A stretch of DNA of 64,000 nt. Origin: Actinomadura mexicana (lineage in GTDB: Bacteria > Actinomycetota > Actinomycetes > Streptosporangiales > Streptosporangiaceae). How positions within the stretch are numbered: position 1 is the first letter of the stretch; each line of letters opens with the position of its first letter. This document shows, in pieces, positions 31,843 through 38,702 of the stretch. Below the pieces are notes generated by a model. It did not search any database. It worked only from the letters and a program-made list of their open reading frames with translations, and was not told where the DNA came from. Location: NCBI RefSeq assembly GCF_900188105.1, contig NZ_FZNP01000025.1, positions 1 to 64,000 on the forward strand, written 5' to 3'. The position numbers and the translations under genes are program-made.

Positions 31843-32646
31843 TCAGAGCTTGCGGCCGACTCCCGCGTAGAACCAGATCGGCAGGGCCTCCTCAAGGGCG
31901 ACCGGGTGCTCCGGCCGCCACAGCGGCGCCCACACCACGCCCGGGTCGACCAGCTCGAAGTCGCCGAACAGGCCCGTCACCTGGTCGAGGGTGCGCGGCG
32001 TGCCGGGCGCGTTCGTCCTCTTGTAGACCTCCACGACCTTCGCCACGATGTCGGGCACGCCGTCGGCGGAGGCGTGGGTGATCGCCATGTGGCTGCCGGG
32101 GGCGAGCGCGTCGCGCAGCTCGGCCATGACGCCGGACGGGTCGTCCTCGTCCGGAATGAAGTGCAGGGTGGCGATCGTCAGCAGCGCGACCGGCTTGCCG
32201 AAGTCCAGCAGCCGGGTGATCTCGGGGTGCTCCAGGATCTCGCGGGGGCGGCGGATGTCGGCCTGGACCATCCGGGTGCCGGGCGAGTCGGCGAGGATCG
32301 CCCGTCCGTGCGCGACGACCTGGCCGTCGTAGTCGACGTAGGCGACGCGCGCGGCGGGGTTCACCGCCTGGGCGATCTGGTGGACGTTCTGCTGGGTGGG
32401 CAGCCCGGTGCCGATGTCGAGGAACTGGTCGATGCCCTGCTCGGCCATGTACCGGACGGCGCGGCCCATGAACGCCCGGTTCTCCTTGATCAGGCTGATC
32501 AGGGTGGGGTCGGCGGTCTTGGCCTCCTCGGCGCGGAGGCGGTCGGCCTCGTAGTGGTCCTTGCCGCCGAGGTAGTAGTCGTACATGCGAGCGATGTTCG
32601 GCACGCTCGGGTCGAATCCGCCTGGCCGAAGCCCCTCGCCTGCCAC
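31843..32646 (-). CDS. SAM-dependent methyltransferase, PF04672 (DUF574) family
   Basis: 267 residues. The family-specific N-terminal signature is FDPSVPNIARMYDYYLGGKD, the SAM loop is FLDIGTGLPT, and the acidic residue binding ribose is in VAYVDYDGQVV. The C-terminus LWRPEHP...VGRKL is also conserved. The GTG at 32646 follows GGGAGGCAC; an ATG at 32679 is a weaker alternative. These proteins are numerous in actinomycetes, sometimes in natural-product loci; substrates are mostly unknown. A second copy lies divergently. Confidence 0.87.
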   Translation of the reverse strand: MAGEGLRPGGFDPSVPNIARMYDYYLGGKDHYEADRLRAEEAKTADPTLISLIKENRAFMGRAVRYMAEQGIDQFLDIGTGLPTQQNVHQIAQAVNPAARVAYVDYDGQVVAHGRAILADSPGTRMVQADIRRPREILEHPEITRLLDFGKPVALLTIATLHFIPDEDDPSGVMAELRDALAPGSHMAITHASADGVPDIVAKVVEVYKRTNAPGTPRTLDQVTGLFGDFELVDPGVVWAPLWRPEHPVALEEALPIWFYAGVGRKL

Positions 32647-32928
32647 CGTGCCTCCCTGCCGGCCGCCCGCGCTGATCATCTTCACACCCACTCTACGGCT
32701 GCGACCACCCCGCCGGGACCGGTCCACGAGAACGACCGATCACGATTCGGTCCGGCGGCCGGACCCCGTCCGGGCGGTCCGGACGGTGCCCCGCCGCCGG
32801 CCGATGACGTCGTCAGGGCCGGGGTGCCTACCTTGAGTACGTCGGGCGTACCGGAAAGTAGCGTGCCATACTGGGCGATTCCCGGCCGCCGTGCGTCACC
32901 GCTCGGATGTCAGCTGATTGGAGAAGCC

Positions 32929-35466: not shown

Positions 35467-37323
35467 GTGGGCTTTCCAGGACCCCGAAGGGTCGTCATCG
35501 TCGGAGCAGGCTTAGCCGGAACCGCCACCGCCATACGCCTCATGCAGTTCGCCCGGGAACCATTACAAGTGGTGCTGATAGAGCGGCGGCCCGAATACCG
35601 CAGTGCGGGCGTGGCCTATCACCGTTCGGGCAACCACTGGCACCACGTCTTCAATATCCAGGCCGGCCGCATGTCGATGTTCCGGGAGGACGTCGACGAT
35701 TTCGTGGACTGGGCGAACACCGAGGCCGACCGGACCGGCTGGCCCGAGGGGTGGAGCGGTTTCACCTTCACCGAGTCCGGTCCGGCGCCCCGCCGGCTCT
35801 ACGCCGACTACCTGCGCACCCGCCTCGACGAAGCCGCGCGCGAGGCGTCGGACGGCGTGGAGTTGCTCGAAGCCGACGGCGAGGCGGTCGACATCACGAT
35901 CGGCGCCGGCCGCGCGGACGTCGTCGTGGAGCGGCACTCCTCGCCGCCCTCCGGCACCGGGCCGGACCTGATGACGATCGAGGCCGACCACGTCGTCCTC
36001 GCGACGGGGCTGGAGGAACGGGAGCTCCCGTTCGCGGCCGGCGTCGCGGACCACCCCGGCTTCGTCCGGCACCCCTACTCCGAGCGGGGAGTCCAGCGGA
36101 TCCTCGGCCTCCGGCAGGACGCCGAGGTCGCCATCATCGGCACGCTGCTGAGCGCGTACGACTCGGCCTCACTCCTGCTGCGGCACGGCCACACCGGGAG
36201 GATCCACATGATCTCGCGGTCCGGGCTGACGCTGCGCACCTATCCCTCCGACCACCGGCACCACGTCCTCGACCTGCCGGCTCCACGGCTGCACTCCGAC
36301 GGCTACGAGGGCTGCGACGAGCTCGTCCGGCTCTTCAGGGACGAGTGGGAACGGGCGCGTACCTTCGTCGCCCAGCGGCATTCCGGCGTGGCGCCCGCGG
36401 TCGTGAGCGAGCGCATCGCCAAGTCCTGGGAGCCCAGCCTGCCCGAGGTCCTCGCCCGGATCCCCTCGGCCGACCTCCGCGCGCTCCTCGACAGGTACGG
36501 GAGCCTGCTGGCCACGCTGCGCGTGAGCGCCGTCCCCTACATCACCGAGTTCGTCGACGCCGCGATGGCGGAGGGCGGGCCGATCGTCCTCACCACCGGC
36601 GCCGTCGGCGGGATCACCGCCACCGAGGCCGGCCGGCTGCGGGTGGCGGTGTCCGGGCCCGCGCCGGCGCGGACGATCGAGGCGGACCTCGTGATCTCCA
36701 ACTTCGGGCGGGAGACCGACTACGAGCGGGTCGGTTCGGCGCTATGGCGGAACCTGCTGCGCAGGGGGATCGCCGCGCGGCACCGGCGGACCGGGCGCGG
36801 CGTCGAGGTGGACGGCCACGGCTTCCTGCTCGGACCGGCCGGCGTGCGCACCGCTCCGATCACCGTGGTCGGCTGCCCCCGGGAGGGTGACGAGATCACC
36901 CGGTACGGCCGGATGGGCGCGTTCACCTTCAACCTCGCCGCCATCAAGAACCACTCGGTCGGCGTCGCCGCGACGGTGCTGCGCCACCTCGAATCCTGCT
37001 ACGACGAACCGACCGAAACCGGGTCGAAGGCCGTGGCCCACGGAGGGGACGACGAGGTGCGCGAGGCGTTCGCCCGCGCGGTACGGCTCGACGTGCACCG
37101 GATGGCCACCCGGCGTCGGCGCGACCGCCGGGTCCTGGCGGCCCGGCTCGAGGACGGCCTGAAAGCCCTCCTGGCCGCCGTGATCGCCGGCGGCGAGGCC
37201 CCCGTGCCGGACGGCGCGCTGCGCTCCGTCGTGAACGCGGCCGCCACGACGAGTCTCAACGACCTGTCCGTCACGCCACGGGATCTCCGCTCGCTGCTCG
37301 AACTCGACGAGGCACCGGAATAG
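35467..37323 (+). CDS. FAD/NAD(P)-binding oxidoreductase (PF13454-like)
   Basis: 618 residues. The N-terminal dinucleotide fold is VVIVGAGLAGTATAIRLM (9-26). Residues 58-73 (HWHHVFNIQAGRMSMF) and ADHVVLATGLEERELP (about 176) match the family of large FAD-binding proteins related to L-ornithine/lysine N-hydroxylase-like and HI0933-type oxidoreductases. A second nucleotide fold is suggested by AEVAIIGTLLSAYDSA (about 219). The last 100 residues are helical and arginine-rich with no assignment. GTG 35467 follows GGAGGGG. It precedes an unusual Enzyme I-like gene by 161 bp, and the two may form one pathway. Confidence 0.75.
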   Translation: MGFPGPRRVVIVGAGLAGTATAIRLMQFAREPLQVVLIERRPEYRSAGVAYHRSGNHWHHVFNIQAGRMSMFREDVDDFVDWANTEADRTGWPEGWSGFTFTESGPAPRRLYADYLRTRLDEAAREASDGVELLEADGEAVDITIGAGRADVVVERHSSPPSGTGPDLMTIEADHVVLATGLEERELPFAAGVADHPGFVRHPYSERGVQRILGLRQDAEVAIIGTLLSAYDSASLLLRHGHTGRIHMISRSGLTLRTYPSDHRHHVLDLPAPRLHSDGYEGCDELVRLFRDEWERARTFVAQRHSGVAPAVVSERIAKSWEPSLPEVLARIPSADLRALLDRYGSLLATLRVSAVPYITEFVDAAMAEGGPIVLTTGAVGGITATEAGRLRVAVSGPAPARTIEADLVISNFGRETDYERVGSALWRNLLRRGIAARHRRTGRGVEVDGHGFLLGPAGVRTAPITVVGCPREGDEITRYGRMGAFTFNLAAIKNHSVGVAATVLRHLESCYDEPTETGSKAVAHGGDDEVREAFARAVRLDVHRMATRRRRDRRVLAARLEDGLKALLAAVIAGGEAPVPDGALRSVVNAAATTSLNDLSVTPRDLRSLLELDEAPE

Positions 37324-37484
37324 GGATAGCCGGAAAGCCATACCGGCATTCGGGAGGGTGCGTTTCTTCGTCCACGGCTGTCACTCTCTATCCATGCTCC
37401 GCCCGGGACAGGCCTGACCGCGGATCGCCTTCGAACGCGGCGGGCCCGCATCGCCAACCGGGACCGGCGAGAGAGAGGACGTCC

Positions 37485-38702
37485 GTGAGCCCTCGCGAAA
37501 TTCCAGGGGTCGTGCTCGTCGATTCGCACGAGCGATCCGTTCAAGGACCCTGCAATCTCAGCAGAGAACCAGTCGACGGCACCATTCTGGTCGTCGATGC
37601 GCTCGGCCCCGAACTCTACGACGCCATCGTCGCCTGTTCCGCCGTCATCTGCGCGAAAGGCGGCCGCACCGGCCACATGCAGTCCCTTTGCCGCTCGCGT
37701 GGAATCCCCGTGCTGCGCGTCGCCCCGTCCGAACTGGACGCGCTCGCCGGCGAGGCCACGGTCCTGCTCGACCGCGCGTCGGTCGTCCTCGGCGATGCCG
37801 CACCGGCGGCGCCCGCCCCGCGGTGCCCGGACGCCGCCTTCGGCGACGTCGAGTCGATCTGCGTGGTCGTCACCGACACCGCTGACATCCGGGCGACCAA
37901 CGCTCTCGCACCGCGCGTCGAGCACGCCGACTCGTTCTTCATCCGCGAGGAGTTCCTCTGCTTCTCCGCCGCCCTGAGCCCGATCGACTCGCTGCGCGCG
38001 GGAGTCCGCGAGGCGGAGCGCTACGGCGCCGCCGTGGCGTCGCGGCTGTGCCCGATGGTGCGCGAACTCCTCCCCGGCCAGCGCCTGATCATGAGGCTCC
38101 TCGACCTGCGCTCCGACGACGCCGCCAAGATCACGTCGGGTGACCACGTGGACGACGAGCCGAACCCCGAACTCGGCCGGCACGGCGCCCGGTGGCTGCT
38201 GGGGGAGCGCCGCTACCCGCACGCCTTCCGGGCGCTGCGCCGCCACCTGCGGGACCGGCTGGGCACGGACGCGGACCGGGTGCGCTTCGCCGTTCCGTTC
38301 ATCAACGACTGCGACGAGTACGTCCGGCTGCGGCGTTTCCTCGGCCTCGGGGACGGGACGCCGCTCGCCGTCTTCGTCGAGACGCCGGCCGCCGTGCACT
38401 CGGCGGCCGACTTCTGCGCCTCCGGGGCCGGCGAGCTGTTCGTCGGCACCAAGGACCTGATCCAGTTCTATCTCGCCGCCGACCGCGGCAACCACCTGGT
38501 CTCCTCGGTCTACCAGACGCGGCATCCGGCGGTCCTGGCCGCGCTGCGCCAGGCCGTCGAGTCCGGCCGCGGCGCCGGGGTCCCGGTCCACGTGTTCGCG
38601 CTGGGCGCCGACCTGGACCACTACGCCCGGCACATTCCGGTGCGGCGGCTCATGATGTGCGCCGCCGAGTTGCGTCACCTCGCCGAGAGGTCGGCGGCCT
38701 AG
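37485..38702 (+). CDS. Enzyme I/PEP-synthase-like protein lacking HPr domain and catalytic Cys
   Basis: 405 residues. Residues about 20-85 form the swivelling phosphohistidine domain: CAKGGRTGHMQSLCRSRGIP keeps the GG-x-T-x-H signature with His. Residues about 125-400 follow the PEP-binding barrel of PTS Enzyme I: FFIREEFLCF (for YRTEFLFM), NPELGRHGARW, VFVETPAAV and ELFVGTKDLIQFYLAADRGN. There is no HPr-binding domain and no ATP-grasp domain. Where Enzyme I has the catalytic MCGE, this protein has HVFALGADLD, so the proton-donating cysteine is gone, and GGDK has become RSDD. It may be a redirected phosphotransferase or a binding protein. GTG 37485 follows AGAGAGAGGAC. Confidence 0.75.
   Translation: MSPREIPGVVLVDSHERSVQGPCNLSREPVDGTILVVDALGPELYDAIVACSAVICAKGGRTGHMQSLCRSRGIPVLRVAPSELDALAGEATVLLDRASVVLGDAAPAAPAPRCPDAAFGDVESICVVVTDTADIRATNALAPRVEHADSFFIREEFLCFSAALSPIDSLRAGVREAERYGAAVASRLCPMVRELLPGQRLIMRLLDLRSDDAAKITSGDHVDDEPNPELGRHGARWLLGERRYPHAFRALRRHLRDRLGTDADRVRFAVPFINDCDEYVRLRRFLGLGDGTPLAVFVETPAAVHSAADFCASGAGELFVGTKDLIQFYLAADRGNHLVSSVYQTRHPAVLAALRQAVESGRGAGVPVHVFALGADLDHYARHIPVRRLMMCAAELRHLAERSAA

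Follow-up and report, generated by a model that had tools for sequence, protein, structure and literature searches.

The window, the whole stretch of 64,000 nucleotides analysed here, comes from the 8.8-Mb genome of Actinomadura mexicana. It carries two intact open reading frames as neighbours on the forward strand, as an earlier note made from the sequence alone had claimed, encoding a flavoprotein and a truncated PEP-utilising protein (hereafter the PEP-like protein) (Table 1). Pfam recognised PF00391 and PF02896 alone in the PEP-like protein, the match to the latter covering residues 194–369, and showed neither an HPr-binding nor an ATP-grasp domain, which agrees with the earlier reading. 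No NCBIfam model reached its cut-off for either protein. The host genome has separate longer relatives (open frames of 608, 819 and 964 codons). A full-length Enzyme I and proteins of PPDK size are present in this host, and the 405-residue protein is therefore not a substitute for them. A gene for a SAM-dependent methyltransferase of the Methyltransf_19 family lies near the pair on the reverse strand (31843–32727), and a gene of the same family adjoins the pair in another locus, L102.

Table 1. Features of the gene pair, in positions of the window.
Feature	Position	Strand	Remarks
Flavoprotein gene, 618 aa	35467..37323	+	Intact ORF; PF13454 NAD_binding_9 (Pfam)
Second dinucleotide motif GTLLS of the flavoprotein, residues 225–229	36139..36153	+	
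Intergenic spacer, 161 bp	37324..37484	+	
Truncated PEP-utilising protein gene, 405 aa	37485..38702	+	Intact ORF; swivel and PEP-type barrel only
Phosphohistidine swivel domain PF00391, GGRTGH signature	37575..37772	+	Pfam, residues 31–96
His64 codon, predicted phosphohistidine	37674..37676	+	Invariant, 63/63
PEP-type TIM barrel PF02896	37848..38699	+	Retains R154, R204, E299, D324, R334
Lys323 codon in place of the conserved Asn of GTNDL	38451..38453	+	Invariant, 63/63
Phe371 codon at the catalytic Cys position	38595..38597	+	Phe/Tyr in 63/63

A neighbourhood survey had been set beforehand as the test that could refute the pairing; the genes remain neighbours elsewhere and no refutation arose. 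The PEP-like protein was present in 15 of the 60 Actinomadura genomes initially searched, and the flavoprotein was found in these same 15 and in three more genomes of the genus. When the 60 genomes were searched for both proteins, 15 had both and 45 had neither (hypergeometric p ~2e-14), a co-occurrence far beyond chance. In all 18 Actinomadura genomes with either gene, the window being the eighteenth, the pair is adjacent and its order unchanged. Neither protein has an orthologue in 394 further genomes sampled across the class, and the cassette is rare outside the genus. A species survey with a profile of the PEP-like protein, run on one genome per species over 84,980 species, produced 66 loci with PEP-like proteins 51–82% identical, in Actinomadura, Actinosynnema, Lentzea, Saccharothrix, Amycolatopsis, Actinophytocola, Planotetraspora, Microtetraspora, Micromonospora, Actinoplanes, Catenulispora, Streptomyces, Kitasatospora and others. 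Flavoprotein sequence adjoins the PEP-like gene in all 66 loci and the pair itself is present in about 60, with its order unchanged in every interpretable locus; contig ends truncate L091 and L110, and the flavoprotein of L120 is broken across frames. Locus L141 (Saccharothrix sp. ALI-22-I) holds the scrambled remnant of a second cassette, and the same genome has an intact copy (L132). All ten Streptomyces plasmids with one of the genes carry the other beside it.

The intergenic gap is 30 bp or less in 32 of the 62 measurable loci; in many of them the stop and start codons adjoin or the genes overlap by 4 bp, and the pair is often translationally coupled. Outside the window the gap ranges from a 4-bp overlap to ~300 bp, being wider in Actinomadura and its relatives, and in L090 two intervening genes extend it to 1663 bp. 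Distance matrices of the flavoprotein and the PEP-like protein correlate with r = 0.96 (0.83 and 0.92 within clades), which fits genes travelling together, yet common descent alone predicts such a correlation too. dN/dS against three close relatives is 0.24–0.44. The flanks change from one locus to the next while the pair stays constant, and the cassette thus behaves as a unit of two; all-against-all clustering of the flanking ORFs showed no third universal gene, and a fixed longer operon was rejected on this ground. Since the two genes always stay together across scattered soil actinobacteria, they almost certainly share one job. The suggestion in the earlier note of an undescribed two-protein pathway is therefore well supported by a strictly conserved pair in variable flanks, for which no characterised close homologue was found.

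The nearest solved relatives of the PEP-like protein in a sequence profile search were PEP synthases (PDB 8a8e, E 5e-23), followed by Enzyme I (E 6e-16). The AF2 model (mean pLDDT 86), compared with Enzyme I as the earlier note had advised, gave its best fold match to phosphorylated Enzyme I 2hwg (Z 29.1 over 363 residues, 3.7 Å), with PPDK next. This match covers both domains, so that the predicted arrangement resembles the form with the swivel histidine facing the barrel. Enzymes of the HpcH/citrate-lyase type match the barrel fold as well, but score lower (Z 15–16 vs 29 for Enzyme I).

Eight residues (H64, R154, R204, E299, D324, R334, K323 and H233) are invariant in 63/63 aligned orthologues, which all keep the phospho-His, the metal Glu and Asp, and three of the four PEP arginines; the phospho-His, metal ligands and anion-binding arginines persist in this way across ~50% identity. 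We take H64, R154, R204, E299, D324 and R334 to be the equivalents of H189, R296, R332, E431, D455 and R465 in Enzyme I, respectively, and the residues replaced to be R358 (by H233), N454 (by K323) and C502 (by Phe/Tyr371). The altered active site described in the earlier note is real as far as it went: FALG at the catalytic Cys position (Phe in 60 and Tyr in 3 of the 63 orthologues) and Lys for Asn in GTNDL are both correct and fixed throughout, but it missed a third change, the conserved Arg of NPxLGxR, which is His233 in all 63. RSDD, which it had listed as a replacement of GGDK, is indeed present, but PEP synthase is the nearer relative by sequence, and PEP synthases have KSNE or RSNE at this place; RSDD is therefore not simply a lost GGDK, and the difference is in part an artefact of the reference. 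Because each of the three replacements is fixed, the active site is one re-tuned under selection and not decayed; with PEP synthase also the closer relative in sequence, to call the protein a degenerate Enzyme I was misleading. The change of Cys to Phe/Tyr together with that of the phosphate-side Arg to His makes ordinary PEP turnover doubtful. With no Cys, protonation of enolpyruvate in the manner of Enzyme I is unlikely, and the phosphate donor becomes the weakest mechanistic step.

The model of the flavoprotein (pLDDT 78.5) predicts two dinucleotide-binding folds, a helical insert (~residues 280–370) and a helical C-terminus. The FAD motif GAGLxG is intact, with G13, G15 and G18 invariant in the orthologues. 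At the third residue of the second motif, 63/63 orthologues have Leu, Val, Ala or Met, whereas the other NAD_binding_9 proteins inspected have Gly (GTGLT or GLGLT), which puts classical NAD(P)H binding in doubt. No Cys is invariant in the flavoprotein, and in the window copy the column where Cys is most conserved is occupied by Arg; in the lack of a conserved cysteine pair, a disulfide reductase of the thioredoxin-reductase type was rejected. The best fold match is the FzmM/CreE-type aspartate N-hydroxylase 8cp2 (Foldseek E 2.5e-16; VIA Z 22.5 over 358 residues), with a small lead over bacillithiol and thioredoxin reductases, which come next at Z ~20–21 (20.8 vs 22.5). The A4 profile gave no sequence match of the flavoprotein to 8cp2 up to E 10, nor was 8cp2 ever matched when bridging was attempted through other NAD_binding_9 sequences. 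The family pfam13454 is the one assigned to CreE-like proteins as well (PMC12181624).

The most recurrent neighbours belong to the carboxymuconolactone-decarboxylase/AhpD-like (CMD) family, found within 3 kb of the pair in 21 of 65 loci against 4 matches in the outer flanks of the same loci, which hold almost double the DNA; since the CMD profile was trained on some of the counted genes, this near/far contrast within the sample is the fair comparison. Whole genomes carry 7–19 CMD genes. The CMD gene lies upstream in Streptomyces and downstream in Actinoplanes and some Streptomyces, and none is found within 3 kb of the pair in the window. An OsmC-family gene stands divergently upstream of the flavoprotein in four loci of Micromonospora, Actinoplanes and relatives (L106, L109, L116 and L130). 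The CMD and OsmC families are both tied to peroxide chemistry, and such neighbours would fit a flavoprotein that releases H2O2. In Planotetraspora (L090:8371-9587), the flavoprotein gene and the PEP-like gene are separated by a TetR and a CMD gene, and in L082 and L083 the same couple is found downstream of the pair. Another observation concerns a plasmid locus (L151, NZ_CP108984), where VlmB-like and flavin-reductase genes ~10 kb downstream of the pair suggest nearby N-oxidation chemistry.

Like PEP synthase and PPDK, its closest relatives by sequence, the PEP-like protein combines a swivel with a PEP barrel and keeps the phospho-His and the metal ligands E299 and D324, but it has no ATP-grasp domain and carries the Cys to Phe/Tyr, Asn to Lys and Arg to His changes. 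With PTS Enzyme I, on which its model superposes, it shares the swivel preceding the barrel and a GGRTxH phosphohistidine signature in that swivel; it differs in the absence of the helical HPr-binding domain, its swivel starting near residue 31, and in having Phe/Tyr371 and Lys323 at the equivalents of the catalytic Cys502 and of Asn454. The nearest precedent for the phosphotransfer half is offered by the two-component dikinases HpeHI, CreHI and PpsAB, in which a swivel histidine of the PEP-synthase type phosphorylates small molecules and the partner is a separate subunit (PMC12167813). Those systems are likewise split over two genes, but they rely on an ATP-grasp subunit as partner and on a substrate domain other than a PEP barrel, whereas here the barrel is retained and the constant neighbour is a PF13454 flavoprotein. 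The flavoprotein in turn resembles the L-aspartate N-hydroxylases FzmM/CreE (8cp2, 8cp5; PMC10404684) in length and in the succession of an FAD domain (GxGxxG), a second Rossmann domain and a helical insert, and pfam13454 is common to CreE-like proteins. With no sequence match to 8cp2 up to E 10, it differs from them in a replaced Gly in the NAD(P)H motif GxGxx and in a smaller helical insert.

The best explanation, which we favour tentatively and with confidence just short of even, is that the two genes form a mobile, self-contained two-enzyme cassette for a single undescribed small-molecule pathway that combines flavin oxidation with phosphotransfer through His64. The flavoprotein would oxidise a small, probably anionic or acidic metabolite with FAD. 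The PEP-like protein would be a phosphotransferase reduced to swivel and barrel, in which His64 shuttles phosphate between the re-tuned barrel site and an acceptor other than HPr or ATP. The acceptor would most likely be the substrate or product of the flavoprotein, so that both proteins would act on the same metabolite, and PEP or an analogue would be the presumed phosphate donor. The redirected phosphotransferase proposed in the earlier note is plausible in this respect: the phospho-His is invariant, as are most PEP and metal ligands, and the proton-donor Cys has been lost. The most novel version, possible but rather doubtful, has the flavoprotein and a stand-alone swivel-plus-barrel phosphotransferase act in sequence, in a new chemistry where a phosphohistidine, charged by PEP or by the host PTS, would activate an oxidised small molecule.

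The losses in the barrel could also be read as a turn towards lyase- or aldolase-like chemistry on an oxidised acid supplied by the flavoprotein, with no phosphotransfer and with the swivel acting as a lid. The proton-donor Cys is lost and Asn has become Lys, yet the E299/D324 metal pair and the anion-binding arginines are retained, and HpcH/citrate-lyase folds do match the barrel. We nevertheless consider this unlikely: a lid would have no need of the conserved His64 and GGRTGH loop, and the phosphotransfer form of Enzyme I fits the model far better than the lyases do. An assignment of the flavoprotein as an FzmM/CreE-type N-hydroxylase of aspartate or a similar acid, whose N-oxidised product the PEP-like protein would phosphorylate in N-O/N-N natural-product chemistry, draws on the top structural match with its nearly full-length alignment, on the shared pfam13454 and on the one plasmid locus with VlmB-like and flavin-reductase genes. 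It has a low probability in our estimate, given the small Z lead over the reductases, the missing sequence-level match to 8cp2 and the lost NAD(P)H glycine; no nitrosuccinate-lyase partner was noticed.

In a regulatory role, the PEP-like protein would report on the state of PEP or phosphate and the flavoprotein on oxidants, with the CMD and OsmC neighbours as effectors. The recurrence of CMD genes near the pair, the divergent OsmC genes, and the TetR-CMD couple between or behind the two genes would agree with such a redox or metabolite sensor, but Pfam finds an output domain in neither protein, regulator types vary between loci, and most loci, the window included, lack a CMD gene within 3 kb. 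The idea is improbable on this balance, and for the phospho-pyruvyl sensor of the earlier note no positive evidence emerged. That both proteins are pseudoenzymes without catalytic activity, retained for a structural purpose, is very improbable: each does lack one hallmark of its parent family, but a phospho-His, metal ligands, anion-binding arginines and an FAD motif that stay invariant at such sequence divergence argue for catalysis. A defence-system role was rejected, as PADLOC gave nothing beyond a weak match to the FAD motif, and so was a phage origin, for which phage-named records offered only weak Enzyme I-like matches (32% identity or less among the matches listed).

Each protein is a member of a known superfamily. 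The pair, the stand-alone swivel-plus-barrel architecture with these particular residues, and the flavoprotein as partner did not turn up in the searched family libraries, the PDB and the open literature; nor did that literature yield anything relevant on a PEP-utilising protein and a flavoprotein in one gene cluster. PEP-utilising enzymes are known from textbooks in two standard architectures, and the cassette keeps the phosphohistidine and the barrel while dropping both partner domains. Together with a constant flavoprotein partner that has an altered cofactor site, it points to an unrecognised phosphohistidine chemistry in actinobacterial metabolism. If the most novel version, with the two enzymes acting in sequence, is true, no PEP-barrel phosphotransferase that lacks both the ATP-grasp and the HPr-binding domain would, to our knowledge, have acted on a metabolite outside the PTS before this one. 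As only two genes are involved, direct expression and assay are possible.

Some loci set the pair among particular genes. On a plasmid of Streptomyces sp. NBC_00846 (L150, NZ_CP108847), it sits in the middle of an enediyne-type polyketide cluster with PKS, DUF1702, CRTAC1, SgcE6-like and SgcJ-like genes, and flanking families like these occur near the pair in L113, L117, L122, L126, L128 and L133. A short MetE-like (Meth_synt_2) gene recurs close upstream of the pair in L095, L096, L108, L140 and L145. On the linear plasmids of Streptomyces globisporus C-1027 and TFH56 (L145 and L152), the pair lies between two repeats of a P4-type primase and DUF6009, an arrangement that may bear on the mobility of the cassette.
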